Positions 1 through 10,035 of a DNA stretch of 26,925 nt are shown here, piece by piece. Source of the stretch: a virus. Location of the stretch: positions 1 to 26,925 of IMG/VR virus record IMGVR_UViG_3300010885_072684. One strand, given 5' to 3'. A model generated the notes under the pieces. That model made no database searches. It saw only the letters and a program-made list of their open reading frames with translations, and had not been told where the DNA came from. The position numbers were made by a program, and so were the translations under genes. The number at the start of each line of letters is the position of its first letter. Position 1 is the first letter of the stretch.

Positions 1-924
1 GCTTCTCGTGCTGCTCTCGGTGGTCAGAAGGCTTTCATGGATGCTACTAAATTCCTAGTGGCAAACATGCTCCGTTCTATGGCTAAGAAGCTTGAAATCG
101 AAATGCTTTATGGCCAAGTTGGTTACGCTAAAATTGATGGCGCTCTTGTTGCTGCAACTACTCTTCCAATCAAAGCTGCTGAATGGGCACCTGGGATTTG
201 GGCAGGGGCAGAAGGAATGCCTATCGAAGTCCGCGATGCAACAACTGGTGCTCTAAAAGCATCTGTTAAAGTTCAGTCTGTTGACATGGAACTACAAGAA
301 ATCGTTGTCGATGGTCCAGTGACCAGCGCAGATGGCGATATTATTTGGCACAAAGGTGCTTATGGTAACGAGTTTGCTGGAATTCACAAGATTCTAACCG
401 TTGCCTCTGGTTCACTTTTCAACATTGATGTTGGAACTTATAACCTTTTCAAAGGTAACAGCTACTCTGCTGGAACTGCTGCGCTCTCCTTTACCAAGCT
501 TGGGCAAGCAGCTACCCGTGCGGTTGAAAAGGGACAAGAAGGAACTCTTCTTTCCCTTGTTAACGTTCGTTCTTGGCAGAACATGCTCACCGATCAAGCT
601 GCTCTACGCAAGTACGATCAGAGCTACAGCCCTGCAAAAATGGAAAACGGAGCTAAGTCTCTCAAGTTCCATTCACAGAATGGCGAAATTGAAATCGAAC
701 CATCACTCTATGTTAAGCAGGGATATGCATATCTTCTCAACGTAGAAGATTGGATGCGCGTCGGTTCAACTGACATTACCTTCAAGCGCCCTGGACAGGG
801 TGAAGAATTCTTCCGCGATCTCGAAAACAGCGCGGCTTATGAACTTCGCCTTTACACCGACCAGGCTCTTTTCTGTCAGGCTCCTGGCCGCAATACAATC
901 ATCACAGATATTGTAAACTCTTAA
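1..924 (+). CDS. Major capsid protein, 5'-truncated by window edge
   Basis: The reading frame is open from base 1, so the gene starts upstream and 307 residues are visible before TAA at 922-924. An ATG at 37 is internal: the codons before it encode ASRAALGGQKAF in the same frame. The soluble mixed alpha/beta sequence, with an Ala/Gly-rich N-terminal helix (ALGGQKAFMDATKFLVANML) and no low-complexity or membrane segments, fits a phage major capsid protein of the HK97-fold type. The very different codon use supports this: all of roughly 27 Leu codons are CTN and all Arg codons are CGN, whereas the following genes favour TTA and AGA, as expected for the most abundant virion protein. A strong terminator follows directly. 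Identification as MCP is by remembered family resemblance plus position ahead of the fibre and connector genes; another abundant head protein is the main alternative. Confidence 0.75.
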   Translation, partial: ASRAALGGQKAFMDATKFLVANMLRSMAKKLEIEMLYGQVGYAKIDGALVAATTLPIKAAEWAPGIWAGAEGMPIEVRDATTGALKASVKVQSVDMELQEIVVDGPVTSADGDIIWHKGAYGNEFAGIHKILTVASGSLFNIDVGTYNLFKGNSYSAGTAALSFTKLGQAATRAVEKGQEGTLLSLVNVRSWQNMLTDQAALRKYDQSYSPAKMENGAKSLKFHSQNGEIEIEPSLYVKQGYAYLLNVEDWMRVGSTDITFKRPGQGEEFFRDLENSAAYELRLYTDQALFCQAPGRNTIITDIVNS

Positions 925-947
925 TAGGGTAGATTTTATCTAGATGG

Positions 948-980
948 GGGGAGGGGGTTAATTCTTCCTCCCCTTTTTTA
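948..980 (+). terminator. Rho-independent terminator after the capsid gene
   Basis: GGGGAGG (948-954) pairs with CCTCCCC (967-973), extendable by two G-T pairs, around a short loop, and is followed at once by TTTTTT (974-979). It lies 24 bp after the capsid stop codon. This is the only clear intrinsic terminator seen in the window. It would isolate capsid transcription from the fibre module. Confidence 0.9.
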
Positions 981-1008
981 TTATATAAATAATATAATTT
1001 CTATAGAT

Positions 1009-1020
1009 TTAACAACTATA
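1009..1020 (+). promoter_or_regulatory. Putative phage late promoter P1 (TTAACAACTATA)
   Basis: Exact 12-bp element in the 925-1025 gap, downstream of the terminator and only 5 nt before the ATG at 1026. The identical 12-mer recurs at 10036-10047 and 18086-18097, each directly before the first gene of a functional block. It ends in TATA followed by A/T-rich bases, like a promoter melting region, but has no host-type -35 box at 17 bp spacing. The rest of the gap is AT-rich and contains a TATAAT at 993-998 without an obvious -35 partner. Confidence 0.6.
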
Positions 1021-1025
1021 AAAGT

Positions 1026-1493
1026 ATGAGTGTAATAATTACGATCCAGGGCACTCCAATTGAATTTCCGTCCACAGGCGAATCGCCTAATTGGGCTCCT
1101 TCTGTTATTGAATTTGCTCAAGCAACAGAACAAGCTCTTTTATCTGCGGTTGGTCCATATGATATTCCACAACAGGTATTTACATTAAGTTCAAATGTTA
1201 ACACTAATTTATCAATAACTAATCTTAGTTTCCCAACAACCGTTGTAAGAAGTGCTTTTATAAATTATTCCGTTATAAGACTATCATCAACCGAAACACC
1301 TTTGAGTGAATCTGGTGAAATTTATGTTGTTTATGATGGATCTGATTGGCGAATTACGCGTGATTACGTGGGCGATGCTGGTTGTACATTTGACATAACT
1401 TCAACGGGACAGGTAAGAATATCAACAACCAGTTTTCTTAATTATACTTCTGGTAAAATTAGTTTTTCAGCTGAAGCATTACCACAGACATAA
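1026..1493 (+). CDS. Conserved virion protein, fibre-associated beta domain
   Basis: 155 aa. The N-terminal part (about residues 1-60: QGTPIEFP, SPNWAPSVIEFAQA, VGPYDIPQQ) matches the style of a small conserved protein seen beside fibre genes in many phages. The C-terminal part (about 65-150) is a beta-rich domain. Its core WRITRDYVGD, F-D-I-T-x-x-GQV recurs at the end of the 1156-aa fibre at 6565-10035 (WEMSQDYIGD, F-N-I-T-x-x-GQI). A structural role in the tail/fibre complex is therefore inferred. The ATG lacks a Shine-Dalgarno box and lies 5 nt after the promoter-like element at 1009-1020, so its mRNA may have a very short or absent leader. No enzyme motif is visible. Confidence 0.75.
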   Translation: MSVIITIQGTPIEFPSTGESPNWAPSVIEFAQATEQALLSAVGPYDIPQQVFTLSSNVNTNLSITNLSFPTTVVRSAFINYSVIRLSSTETPLSESGEIYVVYDGSDWRITRDYVGDAGCTFDITSTGQVRISTTSFLNYTSGKISFSAEALPQT

Positions 1494-1502
1494 GAGGCTA
1501 AA

Positions 1503-2774
1503 ATGGCGTTAGATTTTCGTAAATTTACAGAAGGATTAAGGATTTTACCCAAAGCATCCCTAACTACTGTTGATATTGAAAAGGGCGACCTTCAAGTAGC
1601 GGACGACGCTGACGGAAAACTATATTATAACAATGGTTCTTCTACTTCTCCTATTGTTACAGAAGATCATACTGCCACGCTTATAAATAAAACAATTGAT
1701 GGTGATGACAATACCATTCAAGATTTAGGATTAGCATCACTTAAAACTGTTTTGTTGGATGCAAATAAAACAATACGAAGAAATGCATCTGGTGATGTTA
1801 TTTCTGGTAATGATTTACCTAATTCTAGTCAAATTGTTACATTAGATTCAACTGATACTTTAACAAATAAAACACTAACTTCTCCAATTTTAAATACACC
1901 ATCTACTGACACTATTTTAGGAATTGCTGGTGGTGGATTAACAATTCAATCGGCACCAAATCAAACATTATCAATACTTTCAGCTGGAACGGGTAATGTT
2001 TCAATTCAGTCTGCTGGAACTGCTGTTTCAATAGAACAAGTATCTTTTAATGGTAATGTTGTAACCGGTGGTGGTAGCAGTGCCTTAACGCTTCAATCTG
2101 GCTTAAATCAAAATTTATCAGTTCAAGCACAAGGAACAGGTATCGCGGATATAGCCTCTAAATTTTCTCTTTCTTCAATTTTAAATAATCAGTCTGGATC
2201 AGATCAAACTATTTCAACAACAACAAAGCCATATATAAAACTAACAAATTCTAGTTTAGCTTCTATTGGCGGGATTACAGCATCATCTAATGATGGTCAG
2301 TTTGTGATTTTGACAAATTCAACAAGTAATCCAGTTGTTATTTTAAATGAATCCGCTGGAGCAACGGCAAGTGATAGGATTGTCACTGGAACCGGAGGCA
2401 ACACGACAATTTCGGCAGATGGCAGCGCCTTGTTAATATATAACACAACAAGTTCTAGATGGCAAATTGTTAGTGTTGTTCAAGCTTCTTCTATTCCTGC
2501 CCCTTCCATCACAACAATTACAACATCAACAGCTTTAACTGGATCTAATGATTATGTATTAGTTAATGGAACTGGAGTTACTGTGACACTACCAAATCCA
2601 AACACCCTAACTCCAGGCAAAACCTTTGCAATTAAAAAAATATTTAATGATGTTATCGCTGTTACAATAAACACTGCATCTGGAACAATTGATGGTGGTG
2701 CATCAAAAACAATTGCAACACGCTATCAAGCATTAACAATTACAACAGACGGTACAAATTACTTTATAATTTAA
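1503..2774 (+). CDS. Tail-fibre-like protein, cassette copy 1
   Basis: 423 aa, rich in T, S, N and G, predicted beta-structured. N-terminus MALDFRKF...EKGDLQV...DGKLYYNNGSSTSP-VTE-H-ATL-NKT is the typical repeated LTNKTL-type fibre sequence, with a second copy near residues 115-135 (DTLTNKTLTSPIL). The middle has two copies of a LT-IQS-x-NQ-LS-x-x-x-GTG repeat (about 137-220). The C-terminal domain (about 330-423: VTVTLPNPNTLTPGKTFAIKK, VTI-x-TASGTIDGGA, TDGTNYFII) is a common fibre end domain. It is paralogous over its whole length to the gene at 3778-5118. SD AGAGG lies 5-6 nt upstream. It is probably a trimeric fibre or fibre shaft acting with the tip protein encoded 8 nt downstream. Confidence 0.8.
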   Translation: MALDFRKFTEGLRILPKASLTTVDIEKGDLQVADDADGKLYYNNGSSTSPIVTEDHTATLINKTIDGDDNTIQDLGLASLKTVLLDANKTIRRNASGDVISGNDLPNSSQIVTLDSTDTLTNKTLTSPILNTPSTDTILGIAGGGLTIQSAPNQTLSILSAGTGNVSIQSAGTAVSIEQVSFNGNVVTGGGSSALTLQSGLNQNLSVQAQGTGIADIASKFSLSSILNNQSGSDQTISTTTKPYIKLTNSSLASIGGITASSNDGQFVILTNSTSNPVVILNESAGATASDRIVTGTGGNTTISADGSALLIYNTTSSRWQIVSVVQASSIPAPSITTITTSTALTGSNDYVLVNGTGVTVTLPNPNTLTPGKTFAIKKIFNDVIAVTINTASGTIDGGASKTIATRYQALTITTDGTNYFII

Positions 2775-2782
2775 GGTATCAT

Positions 2783-3367
2783 ATGAGCTACACTCCGAAC
2801 CAAGAAAAATTTATTATAGACACAACCGGCCAAATTACAGGTAATCAATTAGTTGATGCAACAATAACTGAAACAAAAATTGCTAATTCTGCAATCACGG
2901 AATCTAAAATTGCAAGCTCGGCGGTGACAGAAGTTAAAATAGGGAGTGCTGCTGTTACAGAGGCTAAGATAGGTAGTGCTGCTGTAACGACTGCAAAAAT
3001 TGCCAATGTTGCTGTTGATAACACTAAAATTGCAAGCGCAGCGGTAACAAGTACCAAATTGGCAACCGGCGCAACAGAAAGAGATTGGGTTTTGGCTAGA
3101 ACAGCAGCAGCTAGTGTAGGAGTTGTTGGTTCTTATGCTATGTTAGCTGATACAACTTTGGGTACTGGGTTTACCTATGCTCCCGGTGCAACTATTAGTG
3201 GTAGTAATGTTTTTTTTGGTGGAATAGGTTATTCTTCAGCAAGCCCAACTACATATAAGTTTTCAACTACACCTTCAGGAACTTGGAGATGTATGGGTTA
3301 TTTTGATGCGGATTCGGCAACTCTCACGGTTGTTAGCGCAATAACTTTGTGGATTAGAATTTCATAA
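2783..3367 (+). CDS. Fibre tip/receptor-binding-type protein, cassette copy 1
   Basis: 194 aa. N-terminus MSYTPNQEKF-x-IDTTGQI is shared with the protein at 5128-5664. Residues 27-96 are seven tandem 10-residue units of the form AVTxxKIxSA, a repeat typical of phage fibre necks. The C-terminal domain (about 105-194) has GSYAMLA, GTWRCMGYFD and a final LWIRIS, a combination recognisable as a common fibre tip of dsDNA phages and prophages. The tip domain is unrelated to that of the paralogue, so the two proteins probably present different binding surfaces. SD AAGGT is 6 nt before the ATG. The receptor-binding role is inferred from position and domain type. Confidence 0.75.
   Translation: MSYTPNQEKFIIDTTGQITGNQLVDATITETKIANSAITESKIASSAVTEVKIGSAAVTEAKIGSAAVTTAKIANVAVDNTKIASAAVTSTKLATGATERDWVLARTAAASVGVVGSYAMLADTTLGTGFTYAPGATISGSNVFFGGIGYSSASPTTYKFSTTPSGTWRCMGYFDADSATLTVVSAITLWIRIS
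2861..3070 (+). repeat. Seven 30-bp coding repeats (10-aa AVTxxKIxSA units)
   Basis: In-frame tandem repeat inside the fibre-tip gene. The seven units are TITETKIANS, AITESKIASS, AVTEVKIGSA, AVTEAKIGSA, AVTTAKIANV, AVDNTKIASA and AVTSTKLATG. DNA copies differ mainly at synonymous and variable positions, so the repeat is old and maintained at protein level. The paralogue at 5128 keeps only about two units. Confidence 0.9.
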
Positions 3368-3376
3368 GGATTTAAT

Positions 3377-3775
3377 ATGAAAAAAACAATTCAATATGCA
3401 AAAAATCCTAAATTTGTTAACTTAGAAAAAAATGCAATAGATCTTATTGTTAAATTTGATGAATTTGAAGAAGAATTACCCTTTACTGCAACTCCTTATG
3501 ATGAAATGTCATATGGTGTTGATTTATATAATCGTGCTCTTTCTGGTGAATTTGGTCAAATTGAAGAATTTGATAACAGTAAATATCAAGAAATTTTAAA
3601 AGCAAAAGTTAGACTTCAGCGCAATCAATTATTATTTTCAACTGATTGGACGCAAATGCCTGATGTTCCAGAATCAATAAAAAATAAGTATATTTTATAT
3701 CGTCAAAAACTTAGGGATATTCCACAGCAAGAAAGCTTTCCTGAAAATGTTATTTGGCCTGAATTGGAATCTTAA
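3377..3775 (+). CDS. Phage tail assembly chaperone (Phage_tail_APC-like)
   Basis: 132 aa. The C-terminal half carries the signature of the small fibre-assembly chaperone family (PF16778-type): RNQLLFSTDWTQMPDVP at about residues 82-98, YRQKLRDIP at about 108-116, and a closing FPENVIWP. The N-terminal half (about 1-75) is a more variable acidic domain. Such proteins help fold or attach tail fibres and are normally encoded next to fibre genes. Here the gene sits exactly between the two duplicated fibre cassettes, with SD AAGG before the start at 3377 and a 2-nt gap to the next gene. Family assignment is from remembered motifs; which fibre it serves is unknown. Confidence 0.8.
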   Translation: MKKTIQYAKNPKFVNLEKNAIDLIVKFDEFEEELPFTATPYDEMSYGVDLYNRALSGEFGQIEEFDNSKYQEILKAKVRLQRNQLLFSTDWTQMPDVPESIKNKYILYRQKLRDIPQQESFPENVIWPELES

Positions 3776-3777
3776 TT

Positions 3778-5118
3778 ATGGCACTAAATTTTCGTAAATT
3801 TTTAGAAGGCATTAAAATAGTACCCAAATCCTCGTCCACTGCAAGTGAAAAGGGGGATATTGATGTTACTTCTGGGGATGGAAAATTAAATTACCATAAT
3901 GGGACTTCTTCTTCGCCGGTTGTAACTGAAAATCATCAAGCAACTCTTGAAAATAAGACTTTAACAAATCCAACAATTGACAATATTAACGGGGTGTCGG
4001 GTTCTGGATTTTCAATAACAGCAGATGCTGATGTTCTTATTAATGTTGATTTGGGTAATTTTAGTGCTACTACCACAAATGGTGGTGGTGTTTTTATATC
4101 TTCAGATGAGTCGGCTGGTGGATCTTTTCAATATAATAATGGAACAAGTTCTTCGGCTGTTGTAACTGAATCTCATTCTGCAACACTCACTAATAAAACA
4201 CTCACAACTCCTATTGTTAATACATCTATAACAGGTGGAGCTTCGGATCAATTGACAGTTCAATCCGCGTCCAATCAAAACCTATTATTAAGATCACTGG
4301 GAACTGGTGATGTTAATATAAGAACAGATGGATCGGGATCTACTAATATTGAAGACGTTATTTTTAATAATACAGCAATTAGTTCTTTTGAACAAGATTT
4401 GAGTTTGTCCTCGGATGTTGATTTATATTTACAAGCTGGTAGTAGTGTTTATATTAATCCCTTTTATAATACGGTAGTTCTTGGGAGGCTTCTTATTGTA
4501 GCGCCTCCTGTTTTTTATGTTAAACAAACTATCACCTCAAGCGGTTCAAATGTTTTACTTCCAGTTTTAACATCTTCATATGCTGAACTTACCAACAGTT
4601 CATTGGTGAGTATTGATACAATACCCGTTGGTAATTCGGGACAATTTGTTGTTATTATGAATTTGACTGGAAATTCTATTATTATTAACAATGACACGGG
4701 CGGAGCATTTCCAGAAAGACGTATTTTGACTGGCACTGGTGGAAGTGTTTCATTACCAAATAAAGGAAGTGCAACGCTATTTTATAGCATCACCGATAAT
4801 AGATGGCATATTGTTAGCCTGACACAAGTATCTTCAATTCCAACACCATCAATTACAACCATCTCAGCAAACACCTCACTAACGTCGTCTAATGATATTG
4901 TTTTAGTTAATGGGACCACTGTTACAGTCACCTTACCAAATCCAACAACACTTTCCCCAGGAAAAACATTTGATATTAAAAAAATATCTGCTACTGGTAA
5001 TGTTGTTACAATAAATACTGTGTCTGGGACAATTGATGGTGACGCGTCTAAAACAATCCCAACACAATATCATTCTTTAAGAATTACTACCAACGGTGTA
5101 AATTATTTCTTAATTTAA
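3778..5118 (+). CDS. Tail-fibre-like protein, cassette copy 2
   Basis: 446 aa, paralogue of the protein at 1503-2774. It shares the start MALNFRKFLEGIKI, the EKGDI-x-V...DGKL-x-Y-x-NG unit, an LTVQSASNQNLLLRSLGTG repeat (about 158-176) and the full C-terminal domain (about 355-446: VTVTLPNPTTLSPGKTFDIKK, TVSGTIDGDASKTI, TTNGVNYFLI). The NGTSSS-x-VVTE-x-H-x-ATL-x-NKTL block occurs twice, near residues 40-67 and 117-145, an internal duplication that copy 1 has only in degenerate form. The ATG follows the chaperone stop by 2 nt with only a weak upstream GGA, so translational coupling is likely. Role inferred: structural fibre component. Confidence 0.8.
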   Translation: MALNFRKFLEGIKIVPKSSSTASEKGDIDVTSGDGKLNYHNGTSSSPVVTENHQATLENKTLTNPTIDNINGVSGSGFSITADADVLINVDLGNFSATTTNGGGVFISSDESAGGSFQYNNGTSSSAVVTESHSATLTNKTLTTPIVNTSITGGASDQLTVQSASNQNLLLRSLGTGDVNIRTDGSGSTNIEDVIFNNTAISSFEQDLSLSSDVDLYLQAGSSVYINPFYNTVVLGRLLIVAPPVFYVKQTITSSGSNVLLPVLTSSYAELTNSSLVSIDTIPVGNSGQFVVIMNLTGNSIIINNDTGGAFPERRILTGTGGSVSLPNKGSATLFYSITDNRWHIVSLTQVSSIPTPSITTISANTSLTSSNDIVLVNGTTVTVTLPNPTTLSPGKTFDIKKISATGNVVTINTVSGTIDGDASKTIPTQYHSLRITTNGVNYFLI

Positions 5119-5127
5119 AGGTTATTT

Positions 5128-5664
5128 ATGGGCTATACTAAAAATCAAGAACAATTAAATTTAAACACAGATGGAACCATACCAACTAATACAATTGCCA
5201 ATGGTGCCGTTGATGGAACAAAAATTGCCAGCAATGCCGTTGATTTAACTAAGCTTGTAGCGAAAGCGGTGGGCACCTCAGTCGGAACCGACGGGGTTGC
5301 ATATGCGGGATCAAGTGGTACAGTTAGTCTTACATCGACCACCAGGACTACAGTAACAAATCAATCTGTAACAATAACAACAACGGGAAGGCCTGTTATT
5401 TGTTTTATTTCTTTACAAGGAAACGTTAGCCAAGCCACTAGAGTCTCAACCAATGGTAATGTTAATTTTTATTTACTTAGGGGTTCAACTACTATTGGTG
5501 TTGCTCAATATTCAACTACAACCGGATCAATTACCTCGTATCTTCAACTTTTAACATTGGATCAACCCTCTGCTGGTGCTCACACATATAGTTTAGAGTA
5601 TGCTATAAGTGCTGGGGTGACCGCCACCGCCTCGGGAATAAGATTAACCGTACTTGAATTATAA
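5128..5664 (+). CDS. Fibre tip/receptor-binding-type protein, cassette copy 2
   Basis: 178 aa. The N-terminus MGYTKNQEQLNLNTDGTIP and a short KIA-type repeat (about 24-50: TIANGAVDGTKIASNAVDLTKL) are homologous to the protein at 2783-3367. The C-terminal domain (about 60-178) is different: a beta-sandwich-like fibre tip with TVTNQSVTITTTGRPV, FYLLRGST, DQPSAGAHTYSLEY and a closing RLTVLEL. This is a second common type of phage fibre tip. Common base plus exchanged tip is what recombination between receptor-binding genes produces. SD AAAGG upstream. Binding target is unknown. Confidence 0.75.
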   Translation: MGYTKNQEQLNLNTDGTIPTNTIANGAVDGTKIASNAVDLTKLVAKAVGTSVGTDGVAYAGSSGTVSLTSTTRTTVTNQSVTITTTGRPVICFISLQGNVSQATRVSTNGNVNFYLLRGSTTIGVAQYSTTTGSITSYLQLLTLDQPSAGAHTYSLEYAISAGVTATASGIRLTVLEL

Positions 5665-5686
5665 AAAAATTAATGAAAGGTAAAAA

Positions 5687-6118
5687 ATGAACTCTCAAGA
5701 ATTATTTTTAAAATTAGTAGCACAATTAAGAAGTTTACAAATTTATTATCAGGCAGCACATCACAATGTTAAAGGATCTCTTTTCTTTCAAGATCACGGC
5801 GCTCTTGGTGAGTTTTATGACGCTCTACAAGACGAATATGATAGAGCTGGTGAAAAATATGTATCTCTTTATGGAGCATACAATATTAATCAAGTAATGC
5901 AAATGGTTATGGCTTCTATGCAAGGTATGCCAGCTGGTGAAGTAAAAGAAAACAAAGATTACTTTACTGCGCTCCTTGGAAAAGAAAAAGAACTATGTTC
6001 TATGGTCGATACTCTTGTTCGTCAAGGCGGATACAGCGAAGGATGTAAAAATCTTGTTGCTGATATTGGAACGGCGAGCGAGGGAAGACAATATTTAATT
6101 AAACAAAGGATTAAATAA
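5687..6118 (+). CDS. Dps/ferritin-like protein
   Basis: 143 aa. Residues 25-56 align without gaps to the ferroxidase region of Dps (DNA-protection-during-starvation, iron-storing dodecameric ferritins): [20 protein letters not shown] then [13 protein letters not shown]25, H37, D52 and E56 match E. coli Dps H51, H63, D78 and E82, while the position of D67 is Gly (G41, followed by E42). Length is close to a minimal Dps, without an extended DNA-binding N-terminal tail. Apart from the first 17 residues, Leu codons are mostly CTN, as in the capsid gene, suggesting high expression. SD AAAGG precedes ATG 5687, and the stop overlaps the next ATG. Possible roles are iron/peroxide handling, DNA compaction or a virion component; sequence alone cannot choose. 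A non-catalytic ferritin-like fold is the alternative. Confidence 0.75.
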
Positions 6119-6282
6119 TGCCCCTTAAAAAAGGCTCGAGTCAACAAACAATTAGTGAAAATATTAAAACTCTTGTTGGGGAAGGCCGAGACCCCAAACA
6201 AGCAGCAGCTATTGCCTATCAAAAAGCGGGGAAATCTCGAAAATTTTCTAAAACAAAACAAAGTTTAAAAAAGGATAAATAA
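6118..6282 (+). CDS. 54-aa basic protein (MPLKKGSS-type small phage protein)
   Basis: ATG at 6118-6120 overlaps the Dps-like gene stop by one nucleotide (TAATG), and TAA is at 6280-6282. The product begins [20 protein letters not shown], continues [20 protein letters not shown] and ends in a Lys-rich tail. Tiny proteins with the same plan (KKGSS, I-x-x-NI, PKQA-x-AIA, KAGKS) are widespread in phages. Their function is not known to me; the high positive charge would suit nucleic-acid or capsid-interior binding. It is translationally coupled to the Dps-like gene. Confidence 0.85.
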
Positions 6283-6284
6283 TT

Positions 6285-6554
6285 ATGGCTATTACACAAA
6301 AACCACTTTCACACTTAGATTACGAACAAACATTACAAAGTTCATATAATGATGAAAATGCCACCCTCAGTGTTGATGGATTTTTGACTGGTAAGGTTGG
6401 CCGTAAGGTTGAGCTTGCCGTTTCAACAACTGCTGTTTTAGATGATACTGAAACTTATACATTTTCGGAAAACGGGACGCCTCTTTATCAAATTCAAATA
6501 ATATATACAGACGGTACAAGATCCTTAATGGTTTCGGCTGAACGTATTTCTTAA
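6285..6554 (+). CDS. 89-aa phage protein of unknown function
   Basis: The product begins MAITQKPLSHLDYEQTLQSS and has a beta-rich second half (YTFSENGTPLYQIQIIYTDG). The DG-x-L-type strand pattern and its place directly before the large fibre suggest a small virion or fibre-associated protein, but no family is recognised with certainty. SD AAGG (in AAAAAAGGATAAATAATT) precedes the ATG at 6285, and a 10-nt gap with a strong SD leads to the next gene. No signal peptide or membrane segment. Confidence 0.75.
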   Translation: MAITQKPLSHLDYEQTLQSSYNDENATLSVDGFLTGKVGRKVELAVSTTAVLDDTETYTFSENGTPLYQIQIIYTDGTRSLMVSAERIS

Positions 6555-6561
6555 TAGGTGA
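6552..6561 (+). promoter_or_regulatory. Stop-linked ribosome binding site TAATAGGTGA
   Basis: The TAA stop of the 89-aa gene is the start of TAATAGGTGA, whose AGGTGA core lies a few bases before ATG 6565. The same 10-mer occurs at 11217-11226, again beginning with a stop codon and again 3 nt before an ATG. A near copy (TAATAGGTGT) lies at 10048-10057. It is a recurrent SD box of this phage. Confidence 0.7.
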
Positions 6562-6564
6562 GCT

Positions 6565-9500
6565 ATGAGCATAAAGTTTAATCCGCTTATTTTTGGAGGT
6601 TTTGATTTAACTGGTGGAGGTGCTGCTGGTGCTCCTCAATGGAAAACTCCTGTTCCAGATGAAGCATCTCTTCCTATGTCGGGGAATTCTGCTGGAGATG
6701 CTCGTGTTGTTCTTGATACAGACAAGATTTATATATGGGATGATGCAACGTCTAAATGGATTGATACTGAATTAACTACATTAGAAGTAGGAAGTTCACC
6801 AAATTTAGAAGGTATTACATTATCTACTTTTGATGAAAATGTCAGTGGTGTTGATATTACCCGCCCTGCTATTAATTTAGAGCCAGCAGATGAATCAAAT
6901 CCTGGTGTTATTACAACTTCTACACAAACATTTGCTGGAACTAAAACATTTTTAAATGATGTAGTAGTTGAAGGTTCTGTTGATGTTTACACTACAATCG
7001 AATCTTCTTCTGGGAATTTAGAATTAGGTAATAGCACTGCTGATATTAATATCGGTTCGGCTGGATCTACTTCTAATATTATAATTGGTGATAGTTCAAC
7101 CACTGTTCAAATTAGTTATAATCCAGCCGATCCCGCTGATTGGAATCCGGTTCCTAGTTATTTAATTGATGGAGTTGATCAACTTGCTGACCGAACTTAT
7201 ACATTAGAGAGCAACGCGGTTGTACAGAAAGAACCGACTGGATTTCCAAATAGAACAGACTCATCTATATCTTTTTCTGATTCTTCTCCCGATAGAACGT
7301 TTACAATTTCTCCTACCGGTGGATCTTTTGATTTTTATGTAAAAAGTAAAAAATTTACAAAATCGGCGCCCGACTCAATTTCTCTTCCTAATTTATCCGG
7401 AAATCATTATATTTACTATGATGATGCTGGTTTTTTACAATCAACACAAGTTTTTACGGCTGCGTTAGTACAAGACAATGCTATTGTATCTGATGTTTAC
7501 TGGAACCCCGATACAAATTTACACACCTATTTTGCCGAGGAACGCCACGGCGTTGTTATGGATGGTGCTACTCATGCATACCTCCATACTGTCTTTGGTG
7601 CAAGATATTTAAGCGGATTAGCTTTACAGGGTTTTACAATGGGCAGTGGAAACACAAACGCAGATGCCCAATTTACTTCTGATCAAGGCACAATTAGAGA
7701 TGAAGATATAATTCATCAACTTCCAGCTTTATCTCAAATTCCAATTCTTTATCGAATTGGTCAGAATTGGAGGAAAAAGGCAGCAGATGCTTATCCATTA
7801 ATCTATAGTGGAACAGCTGGTTATGTTGGTGCAAACGGAAGAATTCCTTATAATCAATACACCGGTGGTGCTTGGCAATTAACACAAGTTGCCAATTCTG
7901 GTTTCGTATTAGTGCATTTTTTTGGGACAAATGACATTGAAAACGGTGTTGTTGGTGTTCAAGGTATTCAAACTTATAATAGTGTTTCGGCAGCAAGAAT
8001 TGGTGCAAACGTTGAAATCAGTAGTTTGTCTGGTCTGCCTTTTGCGGAATTTGTTCCTATTGGAAGTGTTATTTTTAAAACTGCCAACAGTTTTAGTAAT
8101 GCTGTAAAAGCAATGGTTTTACCCACTGATACGGGCGCGGATTACGTCGATTTCCGTGGTACACAATTATATACCCCCGCCGGAGAGGCGACTACACACG
8201 GTTTATTGAGTGGTCTTGCAAACGATGACCATTTTCAATATTTATTGGTGTCTGGAACTCGCGCAATGTCTGGTGCTCTTGATATGGGCACACATCAAAT
8301 AAATAATGTCGTTGATGGGGTGGCTTCTGACGACGCTGCTACTGTTGGACAACTTACAGATGCCATTACTGACTCCCCTGGAACGTTCGCTGGTTTTGAT
8401 TTTACAACAGGCGTATTGTCACCGGTTCCCGGTTGGGTATTTGATAATAATGGGTCTGCTCAAATCGGGGCTCAAAATTCATTAATAATTCCAGCCGGAA
8501 CAACAGACTTTACAACACTAACTTTAACTCCAACCGTTTTAAGTTCCGGGTTAGCAAATTTTTCACAAATTAATATAAATCCACAAATAGATCAACCCGT
8601 CAATAATTATACAGCAGTTCAATCTTATGGATATGGAACAAGTGCTCCTAATAATTACAACGGGTTTTTATCTCAGCCACAATTTACTGGAATGGTGGAT
8701 AATTTAACACATTTTAATATTGCTGGCAATCCCACTGCTAACAATTTAACTGGAATTAATTACACACCAACATCAGATTCTGGGTTTGAAATAGTAATGA
8801 ATATTTCTCCCAGCGGAGACACTACTGATTTTAAAGGTGTTATGATTACGCCCAGTGGTGATTCTGATTTATTTAATGGTGTTATTGTTGCTCCGTCTGG
8901 ATCGGGTGCAATTTTTAAGGGTTTAAATATATACGGCACTTCAACATATGACGATGTAACCGGTATTGAAATTAATCTTTCAAATATAACATCAACATCT
9001 AGAAAAAAAGGTATTACTGTTGAAGATGGTGTTATTCAACAAAATAATACTTCTTTAACAACAATATCTTCTTTACCGACATTAGTGGATTCTGCGAATT
9101 TATTCAGAAATGTGTTCACTGTAGAAGCTTCTGCTCCTATTAGTGGAACAGATATTATATTAAATAACATGTCGTGTGAATTGGTTATTGACGATAATTA
9201 TTCACCGTCTCCTTTAAATCTAGGAATTAATTCCGCTGGGTTTGTAGGTCAAGTTTCGGTTGAAGCTGGCAAACAAGCTGATATTGTTTCAATGTCAACA
9301 GCTGGATTCGCTGTTCCGGCAACGAGCAACGGTGGTTTAATTGGGCAAGCGCACATGTATCGCACAACTGGTCCGCTTGATTTTGGTGGTGCCCTAACCA
9401 TTAATGAAATGTATGGATTAAGAATAGAGGATGGTCTTTCTAATTTTACTTCGGGTGCAACTTGGGGTGTTTCCGTTGAAGACGCTAATGCTGAAAATTA

Positions 9501-10035
9501 TTTAGCTAAATCTCTTGTTATTGGTGGAATAGATAAGACGACCACTTCCGATGAAATGGCATTGGAAATAGCCGATGCTAAAACAATTAAAGTTGGTTAT
9601 GTTACAACAGCAGAAAGAACCGCATTAACTAATATAGCCGGTTCTATTGTGTATGACACGGATTTAAATAGATTTTTTGGAAATGACGGTAGTCAATGGA
9701 TTCAATTAAATCTATCTCTTGGTGATTTAGACAGGGGTAGCCCCCTTTCCCTAACGCCCGCTGGTGCTCCGACCGATATAACTGGATTTTCTTTTTCATC
9801 ATTGAATGTTAAAGGTTTTGAGGCGATTGTTTCAGTATCAAGAACTAGCCCAACTGATTTATATGCGGAGTATACATTAAAGGGCATCTATAAAGGATCT
9901 TCTTGGGAAATGAGCCAAGATTACATCGGGGACGATACTGGAATTGTATTTAATATAACAACAGCTGGACAAATTCAATATACACTAACTGCTGGTAATT
10001 CTGCTGATTTTACATTTAGAGCATCAACAGTTTAA
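6565..10035 (+). CDS. Large tail fibre protein (1156 aa)
   Basis: Multi-domain beta-rich protein. Around residues 25-70 a DEASLP...GD-x-RVV-x-DT-x-x-IYIWDD unit is typical of fibre N-termini. At about 118-138 there is STQTFAGTKTFLNDVVVEG; at about 150-175 S/G/N-rich strands; and at about 325-530 a larger domain with EERHGVVMDGATHAYLH and DEDIIHQLPAL. HGLLSGLANDDHFQYL (545-560) and AMSGALDMGTHQINNV are classic phage fibre motifs. Long T/S/N/G-rich beta repeats follow to about 1030, then FFGNDGSQWIQL, and the last about 80 residues form the domain shared with the 155-aa protein at 1026. SD AGGTGA precedes the ATG at 6565. It is probably the main adsorption fibre; an appendage or tail-spike component is possible. 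No depolymerase catalytic motif seen. Confidence 0.8.
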   Translation: MSIKFNPLIFGGFDLTGGGAAGAPQWKTPVPDEASLPMSGNSAGDARVVLDTDKIYIWDDATSKWIDTELTTLEVGSSPNLEGITLSTFDENVSGVDITRPAINLEPADESNPGVITTSTQTFAGTKTFLNDVVVEGSVDVYTTIESSSGNLELGNSTADINIGSAGSTSNIIIGDSSTTVQISYNPADPADWNPVPSYLIDGVDQLADRTYTLESNAVVQKEPTGFPNRTDSSISFSDSSPDRTFTISPTGGSFDFYVKSKKFTKSAPDSISLPNLSGNHYIYYDDAGFLQSTQVFTAALVQDNAIVSDVYWNPDTNLHTYFAEERHGVVMDGATHAYLHTVFGARYLSGLALQGFTMGSGNTNADAQFTSDQGTIRDEDIIHQLPALSQIPILYRIGQNWRKKAADAYPLIYSGTAGYVGANGRIPYNQYTGGAWQLTQVANSGFVLVHFFGTNDIENGVVGVQGIQTYNSVSAARIGANVEISSLSGLPFAEFVPIGSVIFKTANSFSNAVKAMVLPTDTGADYVDFRGTQLYTPAGEATTHGLLSGLANDDHFQYLLVSGTRAMSGALDMGTHQINNVVDGVASDDAATVGQLTDAITDSPGTFAGFDFTTGVLSPVPGWVFDNNGSAQIGAQNSLIIPAGTTDFTTLTLTPTVLSSGLANFSQININPQIDQPVNNYTAVQSYGYGTSAPNNYNGFLSQPQFTGMVDNLTHFNIAGNPTANNLTGINYTPTSDSGFEIVMNISPSGDTTDFKGVMITPSGDSDLFNGVIVAPSGSGAIFKGLNIYGTSTYDDVTGIEINLSNITSTSRKKGITVEDGVIQQNNTSLTTISSLPTLVDSANLFRNVFTVEASAPISGTDIILNNMSCELVIDDNYSPSPLNLGINSAGFVGQVSVEAGKQADIVSMSTAGFAVPATSNGGLIGQAHMYRTTGPLDFGGALTINEMYGLRIEDGLSNFTSGATWGVSVEDANAENYLAKSLVIGGIDKTTTSDEMALEIADAKTIKVGYVTTAERTALTNIAGSIVYDTDLNRFFGNDGSQWIQLNLSLGDLDRGSPLSLTPAGAPTDITGFSFSSLNVKGFEAIVSVSRTSPTDLYAEYTLKGIYKGSSWEMSQDYIGDDTGIVFNITTAGQIQYTLTAGNSADFTFRASTV

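Follow-up and report, generated by a model that had tools for sequence, protein, structure and literature searches.

Two fibre and tip cassettes with a shared root and predicted XD1-type fibre ends in an uncultured phage

An uncultured phage carries two fibre genes that share the same kind of N-terminal root and C-terminal end domain, and each of them is directly followed by a small tip gene; the two tip proteins have similar heads and unrelated bodies. We read this region as encoding two two-piece receptor-binding fibres with a shared root, an XD1-type socket and plug-in tips, possibly assembled into mixed virions, and give this reading an even chance of being right. Each fibre trimer would attach to the virion through the shared root and would end in an XD1-fold socket. 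The trimeric tip, the product of its own gene, would be inserted into this socket with a conserved N-terminal head, M-[SG]-[YF]-x-x-N-Q-[EQ]. The chaperone encoded between the two cassettes may help to fold one or both fibres. Because their root is the same, the two fibre kinds would probably compete for one set of attachment sites; virions may then be mixed and bispecific, and the phage may recognise two kinds of bacterial surface.

Gene order and transcription

The window analysed here is the whole of IMG/VR virus record IMGVR_UViG_3300010885_072684 (26,925 bases), which is a genome fragment when set beside relatives reaching 104 kb. All five ORFs described in an earlier sequence-only reading are present (Table 1), in the order fibre 1, tip 1, PF16778 chaperone, fibre 2 and tip 2, on one strand and with intergenic gaps of 8, 9, 2 and 9 nt; that reading had rightly placed a chaperone gene between two fibre and tip pairs. 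They belong to a single-strand gene run from 1026 to 5687 with gaps of 2-22 nt, and gaps do not exceed 22 nt up to a 1156-aa ORF (6565-10035), which is separated from the Dps-like gene by two small genes. Both cassettes are likely to lie on a single transcript, as one operon; we go no further than likely because a second terminator-like match on the same strand falls inside fibre 2 (4063-4092).

Table 1. Features of the two-cassette region and its borders (positions in the window)
Feature	Position	Strand	Basis or remark
Terminator-like hairpin	946-975	+	3' of the major capsid gene, cassette genes start after it; pattern match only
155-aa protein	1026-1493	+	Upstream neighbour of fibre 1, conserved in relatives
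Fibre 1, 423 aa	1503-2774	+	ORF, alignment with fibre 2, structure model
Fibre 1 root ('FRKF' anchor), residues 1-64	1503-1694	+	Root profile
Fibre 1 C-terminal dock (putative socket), residues 325-423	2475-2771	+	XD1 fold in model
Tip 1, 194 aa	2783-3367	+	Head MSYTPNQE, KIA-type repeats of ~10 residues, GTWRCMGY-type end
Tail-fibre assembly chaperone	3377-3775	+	PF16778, 66.6 bits (cut-off 26.6); PDB 2kz6, E 4e-7
Fibre 2, 446 aa	3778-5118	+	Root and end of the same kind as fibre 1
Fibre 2 C-terminal dock	4819-5115	+	70% identity to fibre 1 dock
Tip 2, 178 aa	5128-5664	+	Head MGYTKNQE, short neck, predicted TNF-like lectin-fold end (residues 54-178)
Dps-like gene	5687-6118	+	PHROG 3636, E 1.6e-11; limit of the variable region

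A second contig (L003) has both cassettes with 0 nucleotide differences from the window, so the arrangement cannot be put down to misassembly of a single contig; L003, a near-identical sister, may come from the same population. Among isolates, a related capsid protein was found only in a Silvanigrella phage record (28.7% identity), while two MAG contigs have closer ones. The 155-aa protein encoded before fibre 1 is related, in its C-terminal part, to the very end of the 1156-aa ORF (9778-9993; 35% over 74 aa, BLASTP E 1e-8), and a domain thus seems to be common to this small neighbour and another long, fibre-like protein.

The two fibres

Fibres 1 and 2 align from the first to the last residue (45% identity, E 7e-101). 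Their description as homologous end to end therefore holds for the length of the alignment and conceals its unevenness: identity is about 62-64% in the root (residues 1-64), 34% over residues 65-240 and 70% over the last 99 residues (325-423), which we call the dock. Between the two fibres, dN is 0.25 and dS 1.79 in the root (dN/dS ~0.14), 0.21 and 1.02 in the dock (~0.2), and 0.85 and 1.05 in the fast-evolving middle, all ratios being rough because dS above 1 is near saturation. All four fibre and tip genes have intact reading frames, and the fibres have apparently been under purifying selection since they parted. A profile of the root, here named FRKF, matches fibre 1 with E 8e-29 and fibre 2 with E 5e-34 (both are among its 13 seeds), and the PHROGs matches of both fibres are to families of unknown function only.

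A predicted XD1 fold at the fibre end

In a model of fibre 1 based on a 20-sequence alignment, pLDDT is mostly above 90 over residues 331-423. Residues 332-423 superpose on CBA120 TSP4 (7rej_B 78-175) with Z 11.8 and rmsd 1.8 over 89 aligned residues, and the dock model further matches the Solidus tailspike (depolymerase chain 24qj, residues 610-696; Z 12.7), CpaA (6o38; Z 9.9), T4 gp9 (1qex; Z 9.2), T4 gp10 (5iv5; Z 9.0) and StcE (4dny; Z 8.4). On this model, the dock is predicted to be a beta-sandwich of the XD1 type, as found in T4 gp9, T4 gp10 and CBA120 TSP4. No XD2 or XD3 platform jelly-roll was listed for the model, in which only residues 330-423 are well covered; Foldseek matches to multicopper oxidases were dropped for their low probability. 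A home-made dock profile (last ~100 residues, ten seed sequences) retrieved T4 gp10 alone from the PDB sequences, at an E of 0.54 that by itself is not evidence.

The dock ends at the fibre stop codon and the tip gene comes next. According to the available part of the TSP4 study (PMC8825819), XD1 lies there between other domains, seemingly as a spacer whose role is not fully understood, and linkers keep it from binding trimeric partners across the threefold axis; the RaK2 study, likewise available in part (PMC10253068), terms XD1 non-interacting in T4 gp10 and TSP4. Since no linker follows the dock in the present fibres, the face across the threefold axis would be left free, and this could be where a partner binds. 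Among the papers listed in searches of the open-licence literature, we recognised none as describing a terminal XD1 domain or a fibre/tip socket.

Two unrelated tip bodies

Tip 1 and tip 2 align over residues 1-48 only (38% identity, E 2e-8), and a profile-to-profile comparison of their C-terminal parts found no similarity (hhalign probability 0.3%, from thin profiles of 2 sequences each), which agrees with the earlier claim that the tips have only their N-terminal part in common. Purine-rich stretches, AAGG and AAAGG, stand upstream of the two tip starts.

Through its KIA repeats, tip 1 matches many fibre families, and its neck contains two 30-bp units, the sole tandem repeat found in 1000-6700. 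Its residues 111-178 resemble the end of fibre gp47 of Pseudomonas phage Pa193 (PDB 9b45; E 1e-7), a Pbunavirus-like end, and the aligned part of this end is 49% identical in Marinomonas phage P12026. As far as the available part of the Pa193 study goes (PMC11042391), gp47 was built for residues 1-340 only, so that the end matching tip 1 comes without a solved fold. The model of tip 2, from a two-sequence alignment, has a modest mean pLDDT of 64 and low confidence in the head region. Its residues 54-178 match TNF-like trimeric lectins (BC2L-C N-domain, PLTL) with Z 13.6 and rmsd 2.5 over 120 aligned residues, the lectin-fold matches overall having Z ~13 over 118-121 residues at a sequence identity of 7%. 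The end of tip 2 is thus predicted to have a TNF-like lectin fold, a likeness of fold and not a proof of sugar binding. Both tips had been called known-looking types, and these matches bear that impression out. Tip 2 has no match among isolated phages, and the viral scans recovered no relative of either tip beyond the two sister contigs.

Exchange and fusion of tips in relatives

Among the relatives, unlike tips stand behind fibre ends that are up to 82% identical, and the earlier notion of a conserved base with unrelated tips gains strength from this comparison. For example, the docks of L010 and L048 share 82% of their residues, and the L048 dock is followed by an NQE-headed tip, the L010 dock by a tip that we take, from its motif, to be of the collar type; the end of the L048 tip is presumably an S74-like chaperone. 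The partnership of dock and next gene is also visible as a fusion: L092 has dock and adhesin in one protein, and L043 encodes this adhesin separately, 3 nt downstream of a dock gene (E 2e-41; the match scores 141 bits, and none of 1000 shuffles exceeded -20.7). This adhesin lacks an M-x-[YF] start, so the fusion backs the partnership and not the plug motif.

Dock and tip pairs number one in L048, two in the phage studied here and three in L014 (11504-17865), where one dock makes up nearly the whole of a 95-residue protein and where genes that we assume to be cupin-like and methyltransferase-like lie among the pairs. In L024 (3074-4446), one fibre and tip pair is followed by three consecutive further tip genes, which from their motif we take to be collar-like. 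A search of 900-6700 for inverted repeats suited to Mu-type tip flipping gave only two poor pairs (76% and 83% complementary), each with at least one arm in a region coding for the shaft; phase variation by inversion was set aside for want of fitting repeats in this interval.

The tip head as a putative plug

The dock profile found 76 dock-terminated genes, 45 once similar docks were collapsed, and just 1 of these 45 has no next gene. In the near group (dock E <1e-30; 15 representatives), the dock forms the extreme C-terminus of its protein, with the start of the following gene 7-12 nt downstream. All 15 of these next genes have Y or F at residue 3 (11/11 with similar starts collapsed) and none has it at positions 2 and 4-8, as against 49/411 other abutting genes with Y or F at residue 3 (Fisher P 2e-10), in a comparison for which both the rule and the cut between near and far were chosen after the data had been seen. 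Remoter dock loci show the residue in 16 of 29 cases (15/28 collapsed, P 5e-7).

The only fresh test of the rule came from isolates: 11 dock-matching records were taken, each standing for a different kind of host or phage group, and three were removed before counting, namely Alux-21 (no near neighbour on the same strand), Stormageddon (C-terminus not a dock) and Petra (neighbour on the opposite strand). M-x-[YF] occurs in 2 of the 8 usable records. The rule thus fails in distant isolates, the dock domain alone does not imply this plug, and a general use of M-x-[YF] behind docks is unsupported.

A scan of viral contigs for a fibre end followed by an NQ head gave 8 stretches: five have an upstream dock (L048, L009, L121, and L120 and L124, both from the L014 contig), L122 and L125 represent the same unrelated protein, with no dock, and in L123 neither an NQ-headed gene nor a dock was found. 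In the loci compared here, each of the seven distinct NQ-headed genes immediately follows a dock gene. These seven tips have invariant M1, N6, Q7 and G16 and different bodies, with mean identities of 56% in columns 1-16 and 17% in columns 60-217. Judged from the sequences, the XD1 dock and the M-x-[YF]-x-x-N-Q head look like socket and plug. A dock-like domain reaches archaeal viruses as well: in Halorubrum tailed virus 29 (L106, 2336-3831), it ends the gene directly before a DUF2961 gene that starts MTY.

An unlikely alternative is that the XD1-fold end itself binds glycan, as in StcE and CpaA, and that the small proteins encoded downstream act in the virion on their own, as adhesins or caps. 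The available part of PMC8825819 does describe the fold as glycan-binding in these two proteins, and our dock model matches both of them as well as residues 610-696 of the tailspike depolymerase. A receptor-binding end should, however, vary more than the shaft, whereas the dock is the best conserved part of the fibres and it is the downstream gene that varies; the alternative also leaves the conserved tip heads, the tight coupling of the genes and the L092 fusion unexplained. We keep to the dock as a putative socket. More broadly, a terminal XD1 domain may be a general socket for interchangeable, separately encoded trimeric tips that plug in by M-x-[YF], often extended by x-x-N-Q-[EQ], a proposal that we make tentatively and rate somewhat below an even chance. 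If it is true, specificity would be changed by swapping small tip genes without rebuilding fibres, and the XD1 module, when placed last, would gain a binding function and with it a testable role. A gene that immediately follows a dock-ended fibre can, within this phage group, be read as a receptor-binding candidate even where it has no known likeness.

Origin of the second cassette

A scan with the capsid protein gave 46 loci, and the FRKF root profile gave 60 loci on 47 distinct contigs (duplicate fetches were taken out by hand, near-identical phages are still counted). Among the 26 contigs with at least 2 kb behind the fibre, 24 have one root and 2, the present phage and L003, have two. Eight near relatives (L010, L011, L014, L024, L048, L060, L061 and L062) possess a second fibre whose root is of a different kind, NRTL(Q/K)HF. 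This NRTL root is absent from the 26,925-base window, which as a fragment leaves room for an NRTL fibre elsewhere in the genome. In the 5 of these eight with a detectable Dps-like gene (in L014, this match is split across three short ORFs), the NRTL fibre follows the first cassette and precedes the Dps-like gene, which is the place that cassette 2 occupies here. In L048 a chaperone gene directly precedes the NRTL fibre, as it precedes fibre 2 in the window.

The root of fibre 2 is nearest to those of L011 (77%) and L012 (75%), and the root of fibre 1 to those of L060 (68%) and L012 (67%). The docks of the two fibres are each other's nearest relatives (70%, all others at most 49%). These comparisons are pairwise identities and not a tree. 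A simple tandem duplication as the whole story was rejected, because the docks are mutual nearest relatives and the roots are not; with the fibre 2 root nearer to L011 and L012, the pair of cassettes probably arose by recombination and not by one plain duplication. The earlier term 'duplicated' is thus correct in that there are two fibre and tip pairs, and misleading as to their history. Since cassette 2 stands where relatives have the NRTL fibre, the phage has probably given up its second fibre type and gained another copy of the first in exchange.

The region varies at other points too. L010, L011, L012 and L016 have a 475-479-aa gene (starting MARPKG) between the capsid gene and the small protein, which is absent from the window, and genes that we presume to be HNH- or GIY-YIG-like lie at other points of the region. 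L119 (MAG contig NORP111) and L118, binned as proteobacterial, carry a capsid gene and an FRKF root and are probably phage contigs within MAGs.

Are both cassettes used?

The sequence-only reading had left open whether both specificities are carried at once or one cassette serves as a reservoir for recombination. The intact copies, the apparent single operon and the purifying selection favour the former: both cassettes are probably used, which is likelier than a silent spare, and a pure reservoir is disfavoured. That only one cassette is used, the other being a spare or a recombination leftover that supplies sequence for tip exchange, seems improbable to us. Such a transient state would fit the restriction of two roots to this lineage (2/26 contigs with enough DNA), and recombination between an added homologous spike gene and the gene beside it has been described for an engineered Ackermannviridae phage (PMC11414711, available part). 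A spare would not, however, be expected to keep its fibre and tip frames whole, to have its fibre under purifying selection, or to have a purine-rich stretch before its tip start as both cassettes do; the unchanged cassettes of L003 speak against it as well, with the reservation already made about its population. It is equally improbable that the two fibres occupy separate virion sites and so do not compete, fibre 1 using the customary one and fibre 2 that left by the NRTL fibre, for although cassette 2 takes the NRTL place and the NRTL root of the near relatives is missing from the window, fibre 2 has an FRKF root and is expected at the FRKF site.

Comparison with known systems

In fibre ends of the T4 type (gp37 with the gp38 adhesin, PP01 gp38), a separate tip gene lies directly behind the fibre gene, as it does here. 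Unlike that type, tip 2 is predicted to be TNF-like and tip 1 ends in GTWRCMGY, and neither of our tips presumably has the Gly-rich look of gp38.

Phages with several receptor-binding proteins are already known, and the available parts of the respective studies describe multi-fibre phages in the Ackermannviridae with their spike complexes (PMC11414711), in Shigella phage Sf14 (PMC11821841) and in RaK2 (PMC10253068). The branched tailspikes of Ackermannviridae (CBA120 TSP1-4; kuttervirus S117) resemble the present system in that one phage has several receptor-binding proteins, held together by gp10/gp9-like XD domains, and in that whole spike genes are exchanged between relatives. In CBA120 TSP4, however, XD1 lies between the anchor and XD2, whereas here the XD1-fold domain comes last in the fibre, ahead of a small tip encoded by its own gene. 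Sf14 and the FelixO1-like phages similarly have two kinds of long tail fibre on one tail, but the two fibres of Sf14 differ in structure, while root and end domain are common to both of ours. Alteromonas phages A5 and V22, with chaperone-capped fibres (PMC10579305, available part), and Mu with Tfa share the chaperone gene beside the fibre gene and the exchange of modules between phages; in the present phage, one PF16778 chaperone is flanked by two fibre and tip pairs, and the tips are additional genes. Two traits of this phage are unusual: a terminal XD1-fold domain, as putative socket, combined with exchangeable tip genes, and a repeated root where relatives have the other fibre.
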